From Prolixibacteraceae bacterium (GTDB lineage: Bacteria; Bacteroidota; Bacteroidia; Bacteroidales; Prolixibacteraceae), in NCBI GenBank assembly GCA_016788685.1, contig JAEUSS010000452.1:1-10796 (forward strand): 10,796 bases of DNA, given 5' to 3'. Under the pieces are notes generated by a model. It saw nothing but the letters and a program-made list of their open reading frames with translations. It did not search any database and was not told where the DNA came from. The position numbers were made by a program, and so were the translations under genes. Shown in pieces: positions 1 through 6,182 of the stretch. How positions within the stretch are numbered: the stretch's first letter is position 1; each line of letters begins with the position of its first letter.

Positions 1-1245
1 AATCAGGTAGCCTATATTCCGGGGCGCATCGAGCGGCTGATGATCAACTTCACCGGTGAAACGGTGCGCAAAGGGCAACCTCTGGCGATCATTTATTCGC
101 CGGAACTGGTTACCGCCCAGCAGGAATTGCTCGAAGCGGCAACCACCAAACTGGCACAGCCCGAAATCTACGAAGCCGCCAAAGAAAAACTCCGTCAGTG
201 GAAACTGAGCGATCAGCAGATCTCCGCGATCGAGACTTCAGGCAAGGTGCAGCCCAATATGGAGGTCGCATCAACTTCCAGCGGAATTGTTACCGCCCGG
301 CGTGTCAACAGCGGCGACTATGTGAGCCAGGGTACTGTGTTGTTCGAAGTTTCCGACCTTTCGCGCGTTTGGGTGCTGTTTGATGCCTACGAAAGCGATC
401 TTCCGTTCCTGAAGACGGGCGATAAACTGGAGTTTAACATTCAGGCCTTACCCAATTCGTCTTACTCCGGAACGATCCGGTTTATTGATCCGATGATTGA
501 CCCGGTGAACCGCGTGGCCAAGGTTCGGGTTGAAATGAATAATCCCGGATTCAGGCTGAAACCAGAAATGTTTGCCACAGGCCTCGTGAAATCGAATCTT
601 GCCCAATACAAAGACCAGCTGGTTATTCCACGCTCAGCCGTTTTGTGGACCGGGAAACGCTCTGTTGTTTACGTCAAACAACCGAATAGTGACGAGCCTG
701 TTTTTAAAATGCGAGAAATAGAGCTGGGTCCCATGCTTGGCAACAGTTACGTAGTTGCCAACGGACTGGCTGACGGCGAAGAAATTGTCACACAGGGAGC
801 GTTCAGTGTTGATGCCGCGGCTCAGCTGGAGGGCAAACCGAGTATGATGAATCCGGAAGGAAGTGCTGTTTCAACCGGGCACGATCATGGCGGGATGAGC
901 TCATCGCAAGGTAGTATGACAAATCCGGAAACATCTTCAAGCGATATTCATCCGATGACTTCAAGTCATCGGATGAATGAACTGGCAGAAAAACAGTTTA
1001 AGGTTTCGGGCAATTGCGAAATGTGCAAGGACCGTATCGAAAAGGCTGCCAAATCGGTTTCGGGAGTAGCTATGGCCGAATGGGACAGTGAAAAACAACT
1101 TATTCACGTGCATTTTGATGAGGCTAAGACCAATACCGATGCTATTCAGAAAGCAATAGCCAAGGCCGGGCACGATACTGAAAAATTTAAAACGCCGGAC
1201 GATGTCTATAATGCCCTTCCGGAGTGTTGCCTGTACCGTAAATAA
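1..1245 (+). CDS. cusB: CusB-like RND efflux periplasmic adaptor with C-terminal HMA domain (5' partial)
   Basis: The open frame runs in from base 1, so the N-terminus, with its signal sequence, is missing. Fragment residues 1-40 and about 90-125 form the two lipoyl/barrel-sandwich halves (GETVRKGQPLA, then SSGIVTARRVNSGDYVSQG). A beta-barrel follows (about 125-210) and then a membrane-proximal domain ending near GKPSMMNP. This matches the CusB branch of membrane fusion proteins, which link an RND pump to an outer-membrane channel and bind Cu(I)/Ag(I) in the periplasm. A His/Met-rich linker (GHDHGGM) leads to an HMA-type domain with a NCEMC motif (Cys339 and Cys342 of the fragment) and a terminal ECC. 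Ordinary CusB lacks the HMA tail. Pump and channel genes are expected left of the window. The linker contains a palindromic repeat also found outside genes. Family assignment is firm; metal choice is inferred from the motifs and neighbours. Confidence 0.9.
   Translation, partial: NQVAYIPGRIERLMINFTGETVRKGQPLAIIYSPELVTAQQELLEAATTKLAQPEIYEAAKEKLRQWKLSDQQISAIETSGKVQPNMEVASTSSGIVTARRVNSGDYVSQGTVLFEVSDLSRVWVLFDAYESDLPFLKTGDKLEFNIQALPNSSYSGTIRFIDPMIDPVNRVAKVRVEMNNPGFRLKPEMFATGLVKSNLAQYKDQLVIPRSAVLWTGKRSVVYVKQPNSDEPVFKMREIELGPMLGNSYVVANGLADGEEIVTQGAFSVDAAAQLEGKPSMMNPEGSAVSTGHDHGGMSSSQGSMTNPETSSSDIHPMTSSHRMNELAEKQFKVSGNCEMCKDRIEKAAKSVSGVAMAEWDSEKQLIHVHFDEAKTNTDAIQKAIAKAGHDTEKFKTPDDVYNALPECCLYRK
946..978. 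repeat. Palindromic repeat copy 1, inside the cusB-like gene
   Basis: A perfect 15-bp inverted repeat, ATTCATCCGATGACT and its complement, separated by TCA. Each arm contains its own dyad, TCATC(C/G)GATGA (948-958 and 966-976), with starts 18 bp apart. It spans exactly 11 codons without a stop and encodes IHPMTSSHRMN in the linker between the adaptor and the HMA domain. Bases 964-987 match 1447-1470 with two differences, so the similarity extends beyond the hairpin. Confidence 0.85.
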
Positions 1246-1261
1246 AACTTGACAGAATCCG

Positions 1262-1293
1262 ACTGACCTGATGAACAAATCCATCAGGTCAGT
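1262..1293 (+). terminator. Hairpin after the cusB-like gene, possible terminator
   Basis: A perfect 12-bp stem (1262-1273 with 1282-1293) with an 8-base loop begins 16 bases after the stop codon. It is followed by TTGTTAT, a weak T-tract, so termination may be partial. Confidence 0.55.
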
Positions 1294-1373
1294 TTGTTAT
1301 AGTAGGTATCCTGAAAGAAAAAGACCTTCAAAATCAACCAGCTGCGAAACACGCACGTTTAAATCATCAGCTC

Positions 1374-1416
1374 ATTTTATTCATCCGATGACTCGAAGTC
1401 ATCGGATGAATAAAAT
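1374..1416. repeat. Palindromic repeat copy 2, upstream of the DUF302 gene
   Basis: A perfect 20-bp inverted repeat (1374-1393 with 1397-1416) around a CGA loop. The core equals copy 1, including the paired dyads (1381-1391 and 1399-1409, starts 18 bp apart). It lies in the 284-bp gap between the cusB-like and DUF302 genes. No T-tract follows, so it is not an evident terminator. Confidence 0.85.
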
Positions 1417-1495
1417 AGTAAGTCGATAAGTTTTTATTTATACCGAAGTCATCGGATAAATAAACTGGCAAGTCTGATCAATTTTTATTTATACC
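1395..1495. repeat. Imperfect tandem duplication, 50 and 51 bp
   Basis: Unit 1 (1395-1444) and unit 2 (1445-1495) both begin GAAGTCATCGGAT and end TTTTTATTTATACC. The middle portions differ by several substitutions and one inserted base. Each unit carries one dyad arm (1399-1409; 1449-1459, one mismatch), so unit 2 is a half copy of the palindrome. The array ends 34 bases before the DUF302 start codon. Confidence 0.75.
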
Positions 1496-1529
1496 CTAAG
1501 CAGAATTTAACCATCTAAAAAACAAGGCA

Positions 1530-1946
1530 ATGAAGTACTACATCAGCAAAAAAATAGATGCCACTTTTGAGCAGGCTATTGACCGGGTTAAGGAATCGCT
1601 GGAAAATGAAGGTTTTGGCGTGTTGTCGGAAATTAATATTCACGACAAGCTGAAGGAGAAACTGAATGTCGATTTTAAAAGATATACCATTCTGGGTGCA
1701 TGCAATCCGGCCTATGCTTACAAAGCACTTCAGCATGAAGATAAAATCGGCACCATGCTTCCGTGTAACGTTATCGTGCAGGAATTGGGTAAAAACGAAG
1801 TTGAGGTGGCGGCCATTGATCCGGTTGCCTCGATGATGGCCATTGAAAACCCGAAACTCGCCAAACTGGCCGGTGAGATCAAAAAAAAACTTGAGCGGGT
1901 TATTGAGTCGCTGCATACGGGAGTCGAATCGTTCGGACTGGTCTGA
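1530..1946 (+). CDS. DUF302 domain protein
   Basis: A 138-residue protein that is almost entirely one DUF302 domain. The typical blocks are visible: an N-terminal helix (FEQAIDRVKESLENEGFGV), DFKRYTILGACNP at about residues 49-61, IGTMLPCNVIVQE at about 73-85, and VAAIDP followed by a C-terminal helix. There is no signal peptide or membrane segment, so it should be cytoplasmic. The biochemical role of the domain is not settled. In this window it sits within copper genes, suggesting a part in metal or redox stress, but that is context only. The start is the ATG preceded by AAGG six bases upstream. Two cysteines (ACNP, PCNV) are the only obvious metal or redox candidates. Confidence 0.85.
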   Translation: MKYYISKKIDATFEQAIDRVKESLENEGFGVLSEINIHDKLKEKLNVDFKRYTILGACNPAYAYKALQHEDKIGTMLPCNVIVQELGKNEVEVAAIDPVASMMAIENPKLAKLAGEIKKKLERVIESLHTGVESFGLV

Positions 1947-2028
1947 TTACAGGTTACGGCAACATTCAGTTCAGAAAAAGTAATAATTTAACCCCCGCTA
2001 AAACGAATTCATTAAAACACCTGATAAA

Positions 2029-2676
2029 ATGGTAAGTTCAGAAGAACGATTATACAAAAAGGCTTATGCCCTAAGCCTTTTTACTATTTTTTATAACCTT
2101 GCCGAAGGGATACTGTCGATGTTTCTGGGCTACGAGGACGAGGCTCTGACCCTGCTTGGCTTCGGAGTCGACAGTTTTATCGAAGTCATGTCGGGCATCG
2201 GCATTGCCATCATGATTACGCGCATCAGGCAAAATCCTTCAAGCCCCAAAAGTGAGTTCGAGATCAAGGCGCTAAAAATTACAGGCACCGCATTTTACCT
2301 GCTGTCGGCCGGCTTGCTGGCAGGCATCGTTTTCAACGTGGTAAACGGGCATAAACCCGAAACTACGTTCTGGGGTGTGGTCATTTCGCTGGTGTCTATT
2401 GCGGTTATGGTCTGGCTGATGAATGCCAAAAAATCGACCGGCCAAAAGTTGCACTCCGACCCCATTGTTGCCGATGCCAATTGCACCAAAGTGTGCGTTT
2501 ACATGTCGGTTGTGCTGCTGGTTTCGAGCCTGATTTATGAATTAACCGGGTTTCCTTATGCTGATGTTATCGGTGCTGCCGGTCTGGTTTATTTTTCGGT
2601 TTCCGAAGGGAAAGAGGCATTCGAAAAAGCGAAAGGTAAAAGCTGCAGTTGTTGCTGCGAACACGATCCGGAATAA
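2029..2676 (+). CDS. CDF-like cation transporter, short form, with CxxxC in place of the TM5 HxxxD
   Basis: A 215-residue membrane protein with about six hydrophobic segments. It reads like the membrane half of a cation diffusion facilitator: N23-E26 in TM1, GVDSFIEV in TM2 and ADANCTKVC in TM5, followed by a final helix with FPYADVIGAAGLVYF. Compared from memory with E. coli YiiP, whose TM2 Asp pair and TM5 His153/Asp157 bind zinc, the TM2 pair here is Asp48/Glu52 and the TM5 pair is Cys152/Cys156. The cytoplasmic CDF C-terminal domain is missing, replaced by a short tail rich in Cys (CSCCCEHD). These thiols suggest a soft metal such as Cu(I), Ag(I) or Hg(II) rather than zinc, which suits the neighbours. 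The family relation is confident; substrate and direction are inferred. Confidence 0.8.
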   Translation: MVSSEERLYKKAYALSLFTIFYNLAEGILSMFLGYEDEALTLLGFGVDSFIEVMSGIGIAIMITRIRQNPSSPKSEFEIKALKITGTAFYLLSAGLLAGIVFNVVNGHKPETTFWGVVISLVSIAVMVWLMNAKKSTGQKLHSDPIVADANCTKVCVYMSVVLLVSSLIYELTGFPYADVIGAAGLVYFSVSEGKEAFEKAKGKSCSCCCEHDPE

Positions 2677-2707
2677 ATATCGGTAAAATCGCCGCCGGGT
2701 TTTGTCT

Positions 2708-2917
2708 CTGCAGAATACGGAAACAATCTTACACCGCACGGAAGCAATTTTACACCACACGGAAGCAATTTCCGACCCTCAAAGATTGCTTCCGTGTGGC
2801 GGAATAGATCAACGGAGTGGTGAAGTAAAACAGCCGTGTGGCGAACCCGATCAGCCATGCGACGAACTGAATCAGCCGTATGGCGAACCTGATTAACGAT
2901 ACGACGCAAAATTTCTG
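2708..2917. repeat. 21-bp periodic repeat array with an orientation switch
   Basis: Ten successive 21-bp units can be laid out from 2708. Units at 2708, 2729 and 2750 carry CGGAAGCAATT or a relative. A transition unit at 2771 follows. Units from 2792, 2813, 2834, 2855, 2876 and 2897 carry the opposite orientation, CCGTGTGGCGAA and variants. Because 21 is a multiple of three, open frames with a seven-residue period appear on both strands. The array starts 31 bases after the CDF-like gene and takes up most of that 356-bp gap. I see no credible gene in it. Confidence 0.75.
2755..2799. other. 15-bp hairpin at the switch point of the 21-bp array
   Basis: CCACACGGAAGCAAT at 2755-2769 pairs perfectly with 2785-2799 across a 15-base loop. 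The hairpin results from opposite-facing repeat units meeting. It lacks a T-tract, so it is not a clear intrinsic terminator, though it could slow transcription or protect the upstream mRNA end. Confidence 0.6.
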
Positions 2918-2977
2918 CCGACCGGCGGTTAATGTCGGCGTATTAATGAAACGGAGCTCCGGGAAACTGTTTTACAG

Positions 2978-3008
2978 CTCATCGGATGAGTTTAAGTTAT
3001 CCGATGAG
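2978..3008. repeat. Palindromic repeat copy 3 (diverged), just upstream of the regulator
   Basis: CTCATCGGAT at 2978-2987 pairs with ATCCGATGAG at 2999-3008. The dyad units start at 2979 and 2997 (the second with one mismatch), again 18 bp apart as in the other two pairs. Here the central base order is G then C, opposite to the other copies, yet pairing is preserved. It ends 24 bases before the regulator start codon, where an operator or 5' leader hairpin would lie. Confidence 0.75.
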
Positions 3009-3032
3009 TAAAAATTTATACTTTTATCTGCA

Positions 3033-3593
3033 ATGAGATACTTCATCAAAAATATGGTTTGCCCGCGGTGCATTATGGCGGTGCGGCAGATTTTTCAGGA
3101 ACTGAACTACGCTCCTGTTGAGGTTACTTTGGGCGAAGTGGAAACCGCCCGGGCCGTTCCTGAAGAGGAACTCGATCAACTCCGGGAGACACTGGTTGGC
3201 TACGGTTTCGAACTGATTGACGATACCAAAAGCCGCATCATCGAAAAGATCAAGAACCTCGTTGTTCAGTCGGTTCACCACGATCATCAGGGGCTGAAGG
3301 TCAATTACTCAGAATACATTGCATCGCACCTGAACCGGGATTATGCCTACCTGAGCAGTCTTTTTTCGGAAGTGGAAGGTACAACGATCGAGAAATACAT
3401 CATCCATCAAAAAATTGAGCGGGTGAAAGAACTGCTGGTTTACGACGAACTGACCCTGAGCGAAATTGCCGATCAGATGGGCTACAGCAACGTGGCGTAT
3501 TTGTCGGGTCAGTTCAAGAAAGTGACCGGGCTTACCCCCAGCCATTTCAGGCAGGTGAAAGAAAACAAGCGGAAACCGCTGGACGCAGTATAA
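3033..3593 (+). CDS. AraC-family regulator with N-terminal HMA-like metal-binding module
   Basis: A 186-residue protein in two parts. Residues 1-70 are HMA-like, opening with FIKNMVCPRC, the MxCxxC metal loop (Cys10, Cys13), and ending in a GYGFELIDD strand typical of the fold. After a linker containing HHDHQ, residues about 90-180 form an AraC-type DNA-binding domain with two helix-turn-helix units; LSEIADQMGYSNVAYLSGQFKKVTGL shows the signature second unit. AraC proteins more often sense sugars through a cupin domain, so the HMA module points to a direct metal sensor, most likely Cu(I) given copA downstream. The gene lies between the CDF-like gene and copA on the same strand. The palindrome ending 24 bp upstream is a candidate for autoregulation. 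Domain assignment is firm; ligand and targets are inferred. Confidence 0.88.
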   Translation: MRYFIKNMVCPRCIMAVRQIFQELNYAPVEVTLGEVETARAVPEEELDQLRETLVGYGFELIDDTKSRIIEKIKNLVVQSVHHDHQGLKVNYSEYIASHLNRDYAYLSSLFSEVEGTTIEKYIIHQKIERVKELLVYDELTLSEIADQMGYSNVAYLSGQFKKVTGLTPSHFRQVKENKRKPLDAV

Positions 3594-3673
3594 GCCTGAA
3601 AATCTTATAAACAAATCCAGGAATATCGTAACAACTCTGATGTTTTCAGGCCTTACCTTTGGTAAAAAATAAT

Positions 3674-3943
3674 GAATATCTGTTTCAATGCCTAAATGAA
3701 TCAAGGAGGGGCTTTGCCCCTGTGACCCCAATCCCTTTTTTGTCTTGACACAAAAAAGGAATCAAAAAAGGTCAAGGCTGTGTTCGCTTCGCACGAAAAA
3801 TCAGCGTTCGGCGACTAAAATCTTTTAAACTCGCCTTCGGCTCAAACAGAAAAGATTTTTTAACATCGCCTTCACTTGTTTTTCGGCTCACCGAACAAGG
3901 CCGGTCGGGCTTCATTCATCTTTTGGCATTGAAACAGATATTC
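3674..3943. mobile_element. 270-bp non-coding element with 19-bp terminal inverted repeats (MITE-like)
   Basis: GAATATCTGTTTCAATGCC at 3674-3692 is exactly the reverse complement of 3925-3943, and weaker pairing continues inward for about 15 bp. GTAAAAAATAA (3662-3672) outside the left end resembles GTAAAAAAATAA (3944-3955) outside the right end, a possible target duplication with one A of difference, although it is A-rich. Inside are a hairpin at 3707-3721 (AGGGGC/GCCCCT), a 10-bp stem at 3734-3759, a stem formed by 3817-3826 and 3850-3859, and a bulged stem near 3874-3898. No credible ORF or transposase is present. It fills most of the 366-bp gap between the regulator and copA. A non-mobile structured repeat is an alternative. 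Confidence 0.65.
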
Positions 3944-3959
3944 GTAAAAAAATAAAGAC

Positions 3960-6182
3960 ATGAAAACTTCAGTAAAAAAGAATTTCCCGGTTACGGGCCT
4001 GAGCTGCGCCTCCTGTGCCATCAGTGTCGAAAGTATGCTTAAGGCGCAGTCCGGTGTACTCGATGCTTCGGTTAACTATGCCAATTCTTCGGTCTGGGTT
4101 GAATATATGCCTGAAACAGCTTCGGTTGCCGATTTCAAAACAGCCATCCAGTCTATTGGTTACGATCTGCTCATCGAAGATGAAGGTCACGACCATCAGG
4201 AAGAGTTGCAGCAGATTCATTACAAAAAACTCAAGACCAATACGCTTTGGGCCTCGTTACTGGCCTTTCCGGTGGTGGTAATTGCCATGTTCCTGATGTA
4301 TATGCCGTATGCCAACTGGATCATGCTGGTGCTGTCAACGCCGGTAATTGTCTGGTTTGGGCGTGGTTTTTTCGTCAACGCGTATAAACAGGCGCAACAC
4401 GGCAAAGCCAATATGGATACCCTGGTAGCGTTAAGCACGGGTATCGCCTACCTGTTCAGTCTGTTCAGCACATTTTTTCCTGAATTCTGGCACAGCCGCG
4501 GGCAACATCCGCACGTGTATTTCGAAGCGGCTGCGGTAGTCATTGCCTTCATTCTTTTGGGTAAGGTGCTCGAAGAAAGGGCCAAGTCGAACACTTCGTC
4601 GGCCATTAAAAAGCTCATCGGCCTGCAGTCCAATACGGTTAACCTGATTCACGATAACGGTCAGGAGGAAGAAATACCGGTTTCGCAGGTAAAGGTTGGC
4701 TACCGGCTGCTGGTCAAGCCCGGCGACAAAATTCCGGTCGACGGCGAAATTGTTTCAGGCTCGTCGTTCATCGACGAAAGTACGATTACCGGCGAGTCAC
4801 TTCCGGTTGAAAAAGAGCCGGGCGGAAAAGTATTTGCCGGAACCATCAACCAGAAAGGAAGTTTTGTTTTTGTCGCTCAGAAAGTGGGCGGCGAAACCAT
4901 TCTGGCGCAAATTATTAAAATGGTTCAGGAAGCCCAGGGCAGCAAACCGCCTGTTCAGAAACTGGTGGATCAGATTGCCGGAATTTTCGTTCCGGTAGTG
5001 ATGGTCATTGCCGTAATCAGCTTTGTGACCTGGATGATCCTGGGTGGCGACAACGCCGTGACGCAGGCGCTGCTGGCCATGGTTTCGGTACTGGTAATCG
5101 CCTGTCCGTGTGCGCTGGGACTTGCAACTCCGACAGCCATTATGGTTGGCATGGGCAAAGGTGCCGAAAACGGAATACTGATTAAAGATGCCGAAAGCCT
5201 GGAACTGTCGCATAAAGTTAATGCCGTGGTTTTGGATAAAACCGGAACGGTTACGGAAGGGAAACCAGCTGTTACGGATATGGCGTGGACTGTTTCAGGT
5301 GATGAAAAAGCAGCGCTGGAACAAATGCTTTATGCCATCGAATTGCAGTCGGAACATCCGTTGGCTGAAGCCGTCACCGCTTCGCTGAAAATCAGATCCG
5401 GTGAGCGGATAGTGCCGGATAAGTTTGAAAGCATTACCGGGAGAGGTGTTGCGGCTCATTACGGAAACCGGGTTTACCTGGTGGGCAATCAGAAATTCCT
5501 GACTGATTATCGGGTCAGTATTCCTGAAAGCAGTTTGGCCCGGATGAAGGCGTGGCAGCATGAAGCCAAGACGGTTATTTGTTTTGCCCGCGATACCGAA
5601 TTGCTTGCGGTTATTGCGATTGCCGATCAAATTAAGGAGACTTCGGCGAAGGCCATCGCAGATCTTCAGAATCAGGGCATCGAAGTTTACATGCTCACCG
5701 GCGACAATGAGCAAACTGCCAAAGCGGTGGCGCGAAAAGTCGGGCTGAAGAATTTTAAAGCCGAGGTAATGCCTTCCGACAAAGCAGAGTTCATCCAACA
5801 ATTGCAACGTCAGGGGAAAGTGGTGGCTATGGTTGGCGACGGCATCAACGATTCGCATGCGCTGGCTCAGGCTGACGTGAGCATCGCTATGGGCAAAGGT
5901 TCTGACATTGCCATGGATGTGGCCAAGATGACCATCATTTCTTCCGATCTTCAGCTTATTCCCAGAGCCATCCGCTTATCGAAACAAACCGTTCGTACCA
6001 TTCACGAAAATTTGTTCTGGGCCTTTATCTACAACCTGATCGGAATTCCGATTGCTGCAGGGATTTTATTTCCAATCTGGGGGTTTATGCTCAACCCGAT
6101 GATTGCCGGAGCGGCGATGGCGTTAAGCTCAGTTTCGGTAGTCAGCAACAGTTTACGGCTGAAATTTAAAAAACTCGATTAA
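3960..6182 (+). CDS. copA: Copper-exporting P1B-type ATPase CopA
   Basis: A 740-residue inner-membrane pump that uses ATP to move Cu(I) (or Ag(I)) out of the cytoplasm. One N-terminal HMA domain holds GLSCASC (Cys16, Cys19), followed by a His-containing linker (GHDHQ). P-type ATPase landmarks appear in order: TGES (277-280) in the actuator domain; the metal-site CPC at 382-384 in CPCALGLATP; DKTGT with the phosphorylated Asp426; the P1B nucleotide-binding HP pair at 466-467; TGDN at 580-583; and GDGIND at 626-631. The last two helices carry YN (691-692) and MALSS (720-724), which with CPC define the Cu(I)-type P1B-1 site. Length is normal and no residue looks broken. The start ATG lies 16 bp after the inverted-repeat element, so the promoter lies within that element or farther upstream. 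The HMA chaperone gene follows after 21 bp, suggesting co-transcription. Confidence 0.97.
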   Translation: MKTSVKKNFPVTGLSCASCAISVESMLKAQSGVLDASVNYANSSVWVEYMPETASVADFKTAIQSIGYDLLIEDEGHDHQEELQQIHYKKLKTNTLWASLLAFPVVVIAMFLMYMPYANWIMLVLSTPVIVWFGRGFFVNAYKQAQHGKANMDTLVALSTGIAYLFSLFSTFFPEFWHSRGQHPHVYFEAAAVVIAFILLGKVLEERAKSNTSSAIKKLIGLQSNTVNLIHDNGQEEEIPVSQVKVGYRLLVKPGDKIPVDGEIVSGSSFIDESTITGESLPVEKEPGGKVFAGTINQKGSFVFVAQKVGGETILAQIIKMVQEAQGSKPPVQKLVDQIAGIFVPVVMVIAVISFVTWMILGGDNAVTQALLAMVSVLVIACPCALGLATPTAIMVGMGKGAENGILIKDAESLELSHKVNAVVLDKTGTVTEGKPAVTDMAWTVSGDEKAALEQMLYAIELQSEHPLAEAVTASLKIRSGERIVPDKFESITGRGVAAHYGNRVYLVGNQKFLTDYRVSIPESSLARMKAWQHEAKTVICFARDTELLAVIAIADQIKETSAKAIADLQNQGIEVYMLTGDNEQTAKAVARKVGLKNFKAEVMPSDKAEFIQQLQRQGKVVAMVGDGINDSHALAQADVSIAMGKGSDIAMDVAKMTIISSDLQLIPRAIRLSKQTVRTIHENLFWAFIYNLIGIPIAAGILFPIWGFMLNPMIAGAAMALSSVSVVSNSLRLKFKKLD

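Follow-up and report, generated by a model that had tools for sequence, protein, structure and literature searches.

The first 10,796 nt of contig JAEUSS010000452.1 from a Prolixibacteraceae bacterium (assembly GCA_016788685.1; this whole stretch is called the window below) carry three palindromic elements at a copper gene locus. We consider it quite likely that they are hairpin repeats of 33 nt, non-autonomous and of the repetitive extragenic palindromic (REP) kind, spread by a Bacteroidota subfamily of REP-associated tyrosine transposases (RAYTs, also called TnpA_REP). This reading is favored because one skeleton recurs in many copies with compensating changes in both arms, because the copies are associated with a RAYT subfamily and lie even inside the RAYT gene, and because copies in the linkers of host proteins mostly keep to a single frame and some relatives lack the insertion. 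Among the options offered by an earlier sequence-only reading of the window, the REP-like repeat is the one supported, including the RAYT association that it had set as a check.

A Family of 33-nt Palindromic Repeats

The sequence-only reading had described three sites (948-976, 1381-1409 and 2979-3007), each with two copies of a short dyad whose starts are 18 bp apart. Both the coordinates and the spacing are correct, with the third site showing one mismatch to the dyad pattern (TTATCCGATGA). The dyad is also more frequent than chance would give: the window holds 11 matches with at most two mismatches against 2.88 expected, and none of 200 shuffles reaches 11. In the 3.76-Mb source genome (G000), the paired pattern at the same threshold occurs at 17 places, whereas the reversed control occurs at none. 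The proposed hairpins between complementary dyads hold as well, but there are no two separate dyads, since each pair forms a single 33-nt inverted repeat, and the 18-bp phase of the dyad starts follows from the hairpin geometry of that repeat. Nor is the nesting of palindromes a defining feature, because the arm itself is a perfect 5-bp dyad in only 34 of 195 family members.

An alignment of 89 related palindromes gives the symmetric skeleton ANTSAN5TSACTYNRAGTSAN5TSANT; these 89 were picked by a CTNNNAG core and at most two mispaired positions of 13, so that their pairing is a matter of selection. Element 1 of the window (946-978) is a perfect 33-nt palindrome, ATTCATCCGATGACTTCAAGTCATCGGATGAAT, with a 15-bp stem, a 3-nt loop, no mismatch to the skeleton and a folding z-score of -7.9. 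Element 2 (1379-1411) is likewise a perfect 33-nt palindrome without mismatches to the skeleton; its stem is lengthened to 20 bp (1374-1416; z = -10.9), and it lies 119 bp upstream of the start codon of a DUF302 gene. Element 3 (2977-3009), located 24 bp upstream of an AraC-type gene, is a decayed, imperfect copy with swapped arm centers and three mismatches to the skeleton (z = -7.9). It is thus right that two of the three sites precede genes.

With at most two mismatches, the skeleton is found in 22 copies in the source genome and in 80 of 100 genomes of the bacterial family, with up to 89 copies per genome and 1255 copies in total, compared with 23 for the reversed pattern. With at most one mismatch, it is found in 29 of 149 genomes of the order, where the reversed control gave no match, and in 10 of 198 genomes of the phylum including the source genome; several of the latter are single, unpaired, chance-like matches, and the reversed control gave one match. 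A length of 33 nt and 22 copies in one genome agree with canonical REPs, which are palindromes of 20-40 nt in many copies per genome. The expectation of a REP-like repeat family is borne out, but the hundreds of intergenic copies that went with it are not: the copies number in the tens per genome. The GT[AG]G foot at the stem base, typical of canonical REPs, was seen at 9 of 390 element ends and at 14 of 390 in a control stretch.

Pairing was assessed in 195 elements chosen by the sequence pattern alone, with the arms free. The six pattern-free arm columns pair in 1065 of 1170 cells, and each column shows three or four Watson-Crick types. Pairing is kept in this family and arm sequence is not. 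At the ninth base of the 33-mer, a C-A mismatch or T-G pair recurs in 36 of the 195 elements, mostly of the AGTGAGGGCTTCACT arm type, and this column is possibly a kept bulge.

A RAYT Gene Carrying the Repeat

Contig C601 of the source genome encodes a 231-amino acid (aa) protein with HFH and YIHLNP motifs. Its gene has two palindromes inside, in frame, and two just after the stop codon, and the members of each pair are 51 nt apart; pairs of copies are also spaced by 51 nt in genomes G009 and G012 and by 50 nt in genome G011. Of the 17 paired-pattern places in the source genome, 11 have one of the two arm types of this locus, TCATCCGATGA or TGATCCGATGA; TCATCCGATGA is the arm type of the window. 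Across 19 aligned proteins, H54, H56 and Y185 are invariant, in accordance with an HUH motif plus a catalytic tyrosine; by analogy with the family, they are predicted to be the catalytic residues. S205 and S206 are invariant as well. The only NCBIfam match is to NF047646 (REP-associated tyrosine transposase), in two stretches and with a score of 43.4 bits, which is under the cut-off of 80, and no Pfam match to this protein was found. An AlphaFold model (mean predicted local distance difference test score 74.8) has its best match in the PDB, and its sole match at E ≤ 0.001, in 4er8 (E = 3.5e-6), which is TnpA_REP bound to a REP hairpin; the model thus shows the TnpA_REP fold. The palindrome-coded residues are within a low-confidence segment of the model (71-108).

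The 19-protein alignment was used as a query, and the best 80 of 523 confirmed stretches in named Bacteroidota genomes were taken as RAYT loci; one was dropped because its gene was shorter than 100 aa, leaving 79. Skeleton-type copies (at most four mismatches) are located inside the RAYT gene at 42 loci, within 500 bp of it at 39, in both positions at 29 and in either at 52, so that the predicted link to a RAYT holds at 52 of the 79 loci. Counts by pairing alone (48 internal, 49 within 500 bp, 35 both) take in a few non-skeleton palindromes, and for this reason the skeleton pattern was used in the recount. The internal copies lie at residues 67-106, between the HUH motif and the tyrosine. At the 29 loci with both kinds of copies, the arms of internal copies match those of flanking copies at an average of 6.59 of eight variable positions, compared with 3.91 in permuted loci (0 of 2000 permutations; the permutation ignores kinship). 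Moreover, genomes with a close RAYT have more copies (median 16.5, 36 genomes) than those without a match (median 1, 27 genomes; Spearman 0.51 over 100 genomes). Other Y1/RAYT-type genes were examined at 11 loci, of which two are in the source genome and nine in relatives, and no such palindrome was found there; in the source genome, the loci of the two PF01797 genes (C283 and C640) have no elements.

At some loci, the RAYT frame runs on into further coding sequence. In Tangfeifania diversioriginum (locus L209, 5001-6003), a single frame spans the RAYT and an HPPK/FolK-like domain (PF01288), with one of the palindromes coding for the linker; L099, L114 and L190 have a similar arrangement, judged by length and sequence only. 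At L214, from 3443 onward, the RAYT open reading frame (ORF) runs in frame into a 1026-aa ORF whose downstream part is ATPase-like, and a palindrome lies at the junction.

Evidence against Spread by the RAYT

We infer mobilization by the RAYT from these associations, and several observations weigh against it. No mobilization event was observed, and no target-site boundary was found at the DNA level. Judged by pairing, 17 of the 79 RAYT loci have no palindrome inside the gene or within 500 bp, and at 3 of the 29 loci with internal and flanking copies the arms agree at three or fewer of the eight positions. Of the 27 genomes in which the C601 RAYT has no match, seven still have at least five copies. 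One of these is G011, a one-contig genome with 48 copies, although weaker RAYT-type genes are present in it; its copies would be either orphan repeats or the trace of a lost enzyme. Furthermore, arm similarity does not follow similarity of the RAYT core (Spearman -0.06). This comes from a Mantel-type test on the 33 RAYTs that passed the motif filters, out of 48 with an internal copy, in which 1506 of 2000 permutations equaled or exceeded the observed value. Co-evolution of arms and protein was rejected on this result, and a specificity of the enzyme for the arms is not supported because the arms do not follow RAYT similarity. We read this as a fast turnover of the arms, with matching kept within each locus either by enzyme copying or by gene conversion.

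Template switching, in which one arm is corrected to the other, could also keep the pairing without any enzyme, so pairing alone is no proof of a selected hairpin. The palindromes might then arise and stay perfect through such replication errors together with gene conversion, the RAYTs being bystanders. The homogenization of arms within a locus that nevertheless do not track RAYT similarity accords with this explanation, as do the 48 copies of G011. It is, however, difficult to reconcile with a single fixed 33-nt skeleton across many genomes, with the position of copies between HUH and tyrosine inside RAYT genes, with the lack of the element at the 11 loci of other Y1/RAYT-type genes, and with clade-specific gain in unrelated genes. 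We therefore regard it as improbable and retain the spread of a REP-kind repeat by the RAYT. Under that reading, the enzyme would recognize the folded single strand, probably during replication, would cut and join the hairpin by HUH/Tyr chemistry, and in so doing may copy or move it.

Copies in Host Proteins

Element 1 is not intergenic. It lies in the ORF 1-1245 (forward strand), which is cut by the contig start and encodes a CusB-like efflux adaptor (Pfam HlyD_D23) with a C-terminal HMA domain, and it codes in frame for IHPMTSSHRMN in the linker before HMA. We consider element 1 to be a tolerated coding copy. An offset-0 copy in Alkaliflexus (L169) codes for THPMTSSHRMS, whereas the copy at L226 is at frame offset 2 and hence does not code for the peptide of the window. 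Frame offset 0 prevails among the internal skeleton-type copies of RAYT genes (41 of 43) and among all copies inside long ORFs (55 of 59, a count that is mostly of RAYT genes and is biased, offset 0 being the frame least prone to stops). It is the only offset that places no TSA triplet (TGA or TCA) on a codon, and the preponderance is therefore partly a stop-codon effect; this property fits the survival of the repeat inside genes. Besides the adaptor, non-RAYT hosts at offset 0 include a GH2-type protein (L119) and a Cas9-like protein (L204), and hosts at offset 2 are a TonB-receptor-like protein (L042) and a PF00144 hydrolase (L054). The Cas9-like gene (L204, 107-3883; RuvC_III and HNH_4) has the in-frame copy at residues 973-983 and adjoins a RAYT locus.

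Empty sites were found for both hosts that were compared with homologs. For the GH2-type protein, an insert is present at the site in 8 and the site empty in 32 of the best 40 aligned homologs (120 listed of 1605 found). For the adaptor (30 aligned of 120 listed; 6748 homologs found), the 85%-identical homolog P0121 lacks element 1. A family-type 11-mer is present in the linker of 9 of the 58 adaptor homologs with a recognizable linker among the 120 listed, and outside the linker the motif was not found in 51,217 residues. Among eight relative loci of the genus with the full linker, five (L060, L062, L065, L066 and L074) have a palindrome with other arms, L059 has only a similar peptide, and L063 and L067 have none.

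No Support for a Copper Operator

It was proposed that the palindromes may be an operator. In that case, the copper AraC-type regulator would bind the dyads and thereby control DUF302 and the adaptor as well as its own expression. Element 2 and element 3 do lie upstream of genes, the latter 24 bp before the regulator gene, and the copper locus is rich in copies in several species of the genus. An operator should be conserved upstream of orthologs and limited to its regulon, and neither was found. No family-type element exists within 200 bp upstream of the AraC ortholog at eight relative loci, all of them fetched by the DUF302 search. The position of element 2 has a skeleton match at only 2 of 12 relative loci (L061 and L074) and an imperfect palindrome at L066, in all cases with other arms; indeed, arms at equivalent sites differ between species. 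The copies are not restricted to copper genes either: outside the window, none of the 10 Pfam matches among 16 of 20 ORFs scanned next to 11 copies of the source genome is of a copper family, and the adjoining genes are instead HSP90-family, MazG, radical-SAM, RsmF-type, M20-peptidase and ABC-transporter genes. The operator was rejected on the unrelated neighbors, the lack of elements at all eight AraC loci and the differing arms, and we consider it highly improbable. Elements 2 and 3 are intergenic copies for which a role in copper control is not supported. The richness of the copper locus may reflect that copies have repeatedly entered a linker and a spacer that tolerate them, and we offer no further explanation for it.

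A structured RNA was another option, in which the hairpins act in mRNA as stabilizers, attenuators or terminators and the conserved pairing reflects RNA function. The strong stems (z-scores given above) and the covariation are consistent with it, as is a terminator-like hairpin on the forward strand after the adaptor stop codon (1260-1293; z = -8.4), which has a counterpart at the same place in L064; the relation of this hairpin to the 33-nt family is uncertain. However, the window has no Rfam match at the gathering threshold or at E ≤ 0.1, the only two matches at E ≤ 0.1 being both in L033 and far below gathering. Copies also lie within RAYT and other coding genes, and no conserved position relative to genes was found. 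An RNA function as the primary explanation is thus unlikely, although a structured mRNA role is possible as a secondary use of REP-kind repeats.

Comparison with Known REP Systems

In the classification of TnpA_REP proteins by Quentin et al. (2018; PMC6006769), according to the portion of its text covered here, subclass 2.4 (RAYT group 4 of Bertels) occurs in Bacteroidetes among others, and its tnpA_REP genes contain REPs that are in frame and located between HuH and Y, as is the case at 42 of our 79 loci. Unlike the 33-nt repeat, the REPs of subclass 2.4 have the GT[AG]G foot, and its YIxNNP and WQ motifs are replaced in the C601 protein by YIHLNP and by LF in place of W. Subclass 2.6 (RAYT group 5), as described in the same portion, is mostly from Bacteroidetes, has an SS tail motif and is flanked by footless atypical hairpins with copies elsewhere in the genome. 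The C601 RAYT resembles it in the conserved S205 S206 tail and in the flanking hairpins without GT[AG]G, and differs in having NHFH and LF rather than NH[LIV]H and WQ. Internal REPs, present in the 33-nt family, are not mentioned for subclass 2.6 in that portion. By motif inspection rather than hidden Markov models, the C601 RAYT appears to combine features of both subclasses while failing the motifs of both, and we assign it to neither.

Similar to gammaproteobacterial REPs, bacterial interspersed mosaic elements (BIMEs) and REPINs, the family consists of short hairpin repeats with a cognate RAYT and pairs at a fixed short distance. In contrast to these, it is a symmetric perfect palindrome without GT[AG]G, and its copies thus have no orientation; they occur in tens rather than hundreds. 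In the covered portion of Di Nocera et al. (2013; PMC3733652), intragenic REPs and Rickettsia palindromic elements are described as palindromes that lie within ORFs of unrelated proteins and whose presence in linkers is presumed to be tolerated, and the present copies are like them in this respect. Those types are tagged GTAG or CGTC, the CGTC type being without a known transposase, whereas the present repeat goes with a RAYT and occurs within the gene of that RAYT. As far as the covered portions of these papers go, the kind of element is already known from in-frame REPs in tnpA_REP (2.4), footless hairpins (2.6) and intragenic REPs in unrelated genes. A literature search, with supplements and most subscription papers outside its scope, found no description of the 33-nt family itself. 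What is new, as far as these searches show, is the footless skeleton, the single coding frame, the fast turnover of arms with local matching, and the repeated colonization of one host linker.

Other Features of the Window

A single half-site reported at 1449-1459 is present (TCATCGGATAA, one mismatch), but it does not stand alone: it is the right half of site 2 within a diverged partial direct repeat of 1394-1444 that has one arm only (1444-1495, forward strand; repeat families D2 with spacing 50 and D16 with spacing 51). This repeat shows no notable folding by itself (z = -1.2). The DUF302 gene (PF03625) downstream of element 2 is at 1530-1946 and the AraC-type regulator gene (PF12833, HTH_18) downstream of element 3 at 3033-3593, both on the forward strand. 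The regulator had been taken for an HMA-AraC fusion, for which Pfam gives AraC-type helix-turn-helix domains only and no HMA.

Two further repeats were noted. The interval between a cation-efflux gene and element 3 contains, at 2703-2900, degenerate units that recur around ACGGAAGCAAT and GTGTGGCGAACC. Between the AraC-type and copper ATPase genes, a stretch of about 270 nt (3674-3943) resembles a miniature inverted-repeat transposable element, with 23-nt inverted repeats at its ends; the stretch 3640-3960 is single copy in the source genome.

Significance

A more far-reaching scenario, which we put forward tentatively and with some doubt, is that of a self-carrying, coding mobile palindrome. 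The RAYT would keep its own substrate in frame within its gene, with that copy renewed in step with the neighboring ones, while the arms would change so fast that RAYTs whose cores are at least 60% identical are no more alike in their arms than distant RAYTs are. With its 11 codons leaving one frame open, the unit might enter host proteins such as the copper adaptor, the Cas9-like protein and the GH2-type protein and repeatedly colonize one linker, and recognition by the enzyme might rest on the symmetric TSA/CTYNRAG skeleton rather than on the arms or a GT[AG]G foot.

The family offers a testable case of an HUH transposase with its likely substrate written inside its own gene, and a natural set of substrates, with a fixed skeleton and free but paired arms, that is well suited to finding out which features of a hairpin a RAYT recognizes. 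It also explains why an 11-residue insert recurs in Bacteroidota proteins, where it might be misread as functional, and it cautions against taking such palindromes for operators just because they adjoin metal genes.

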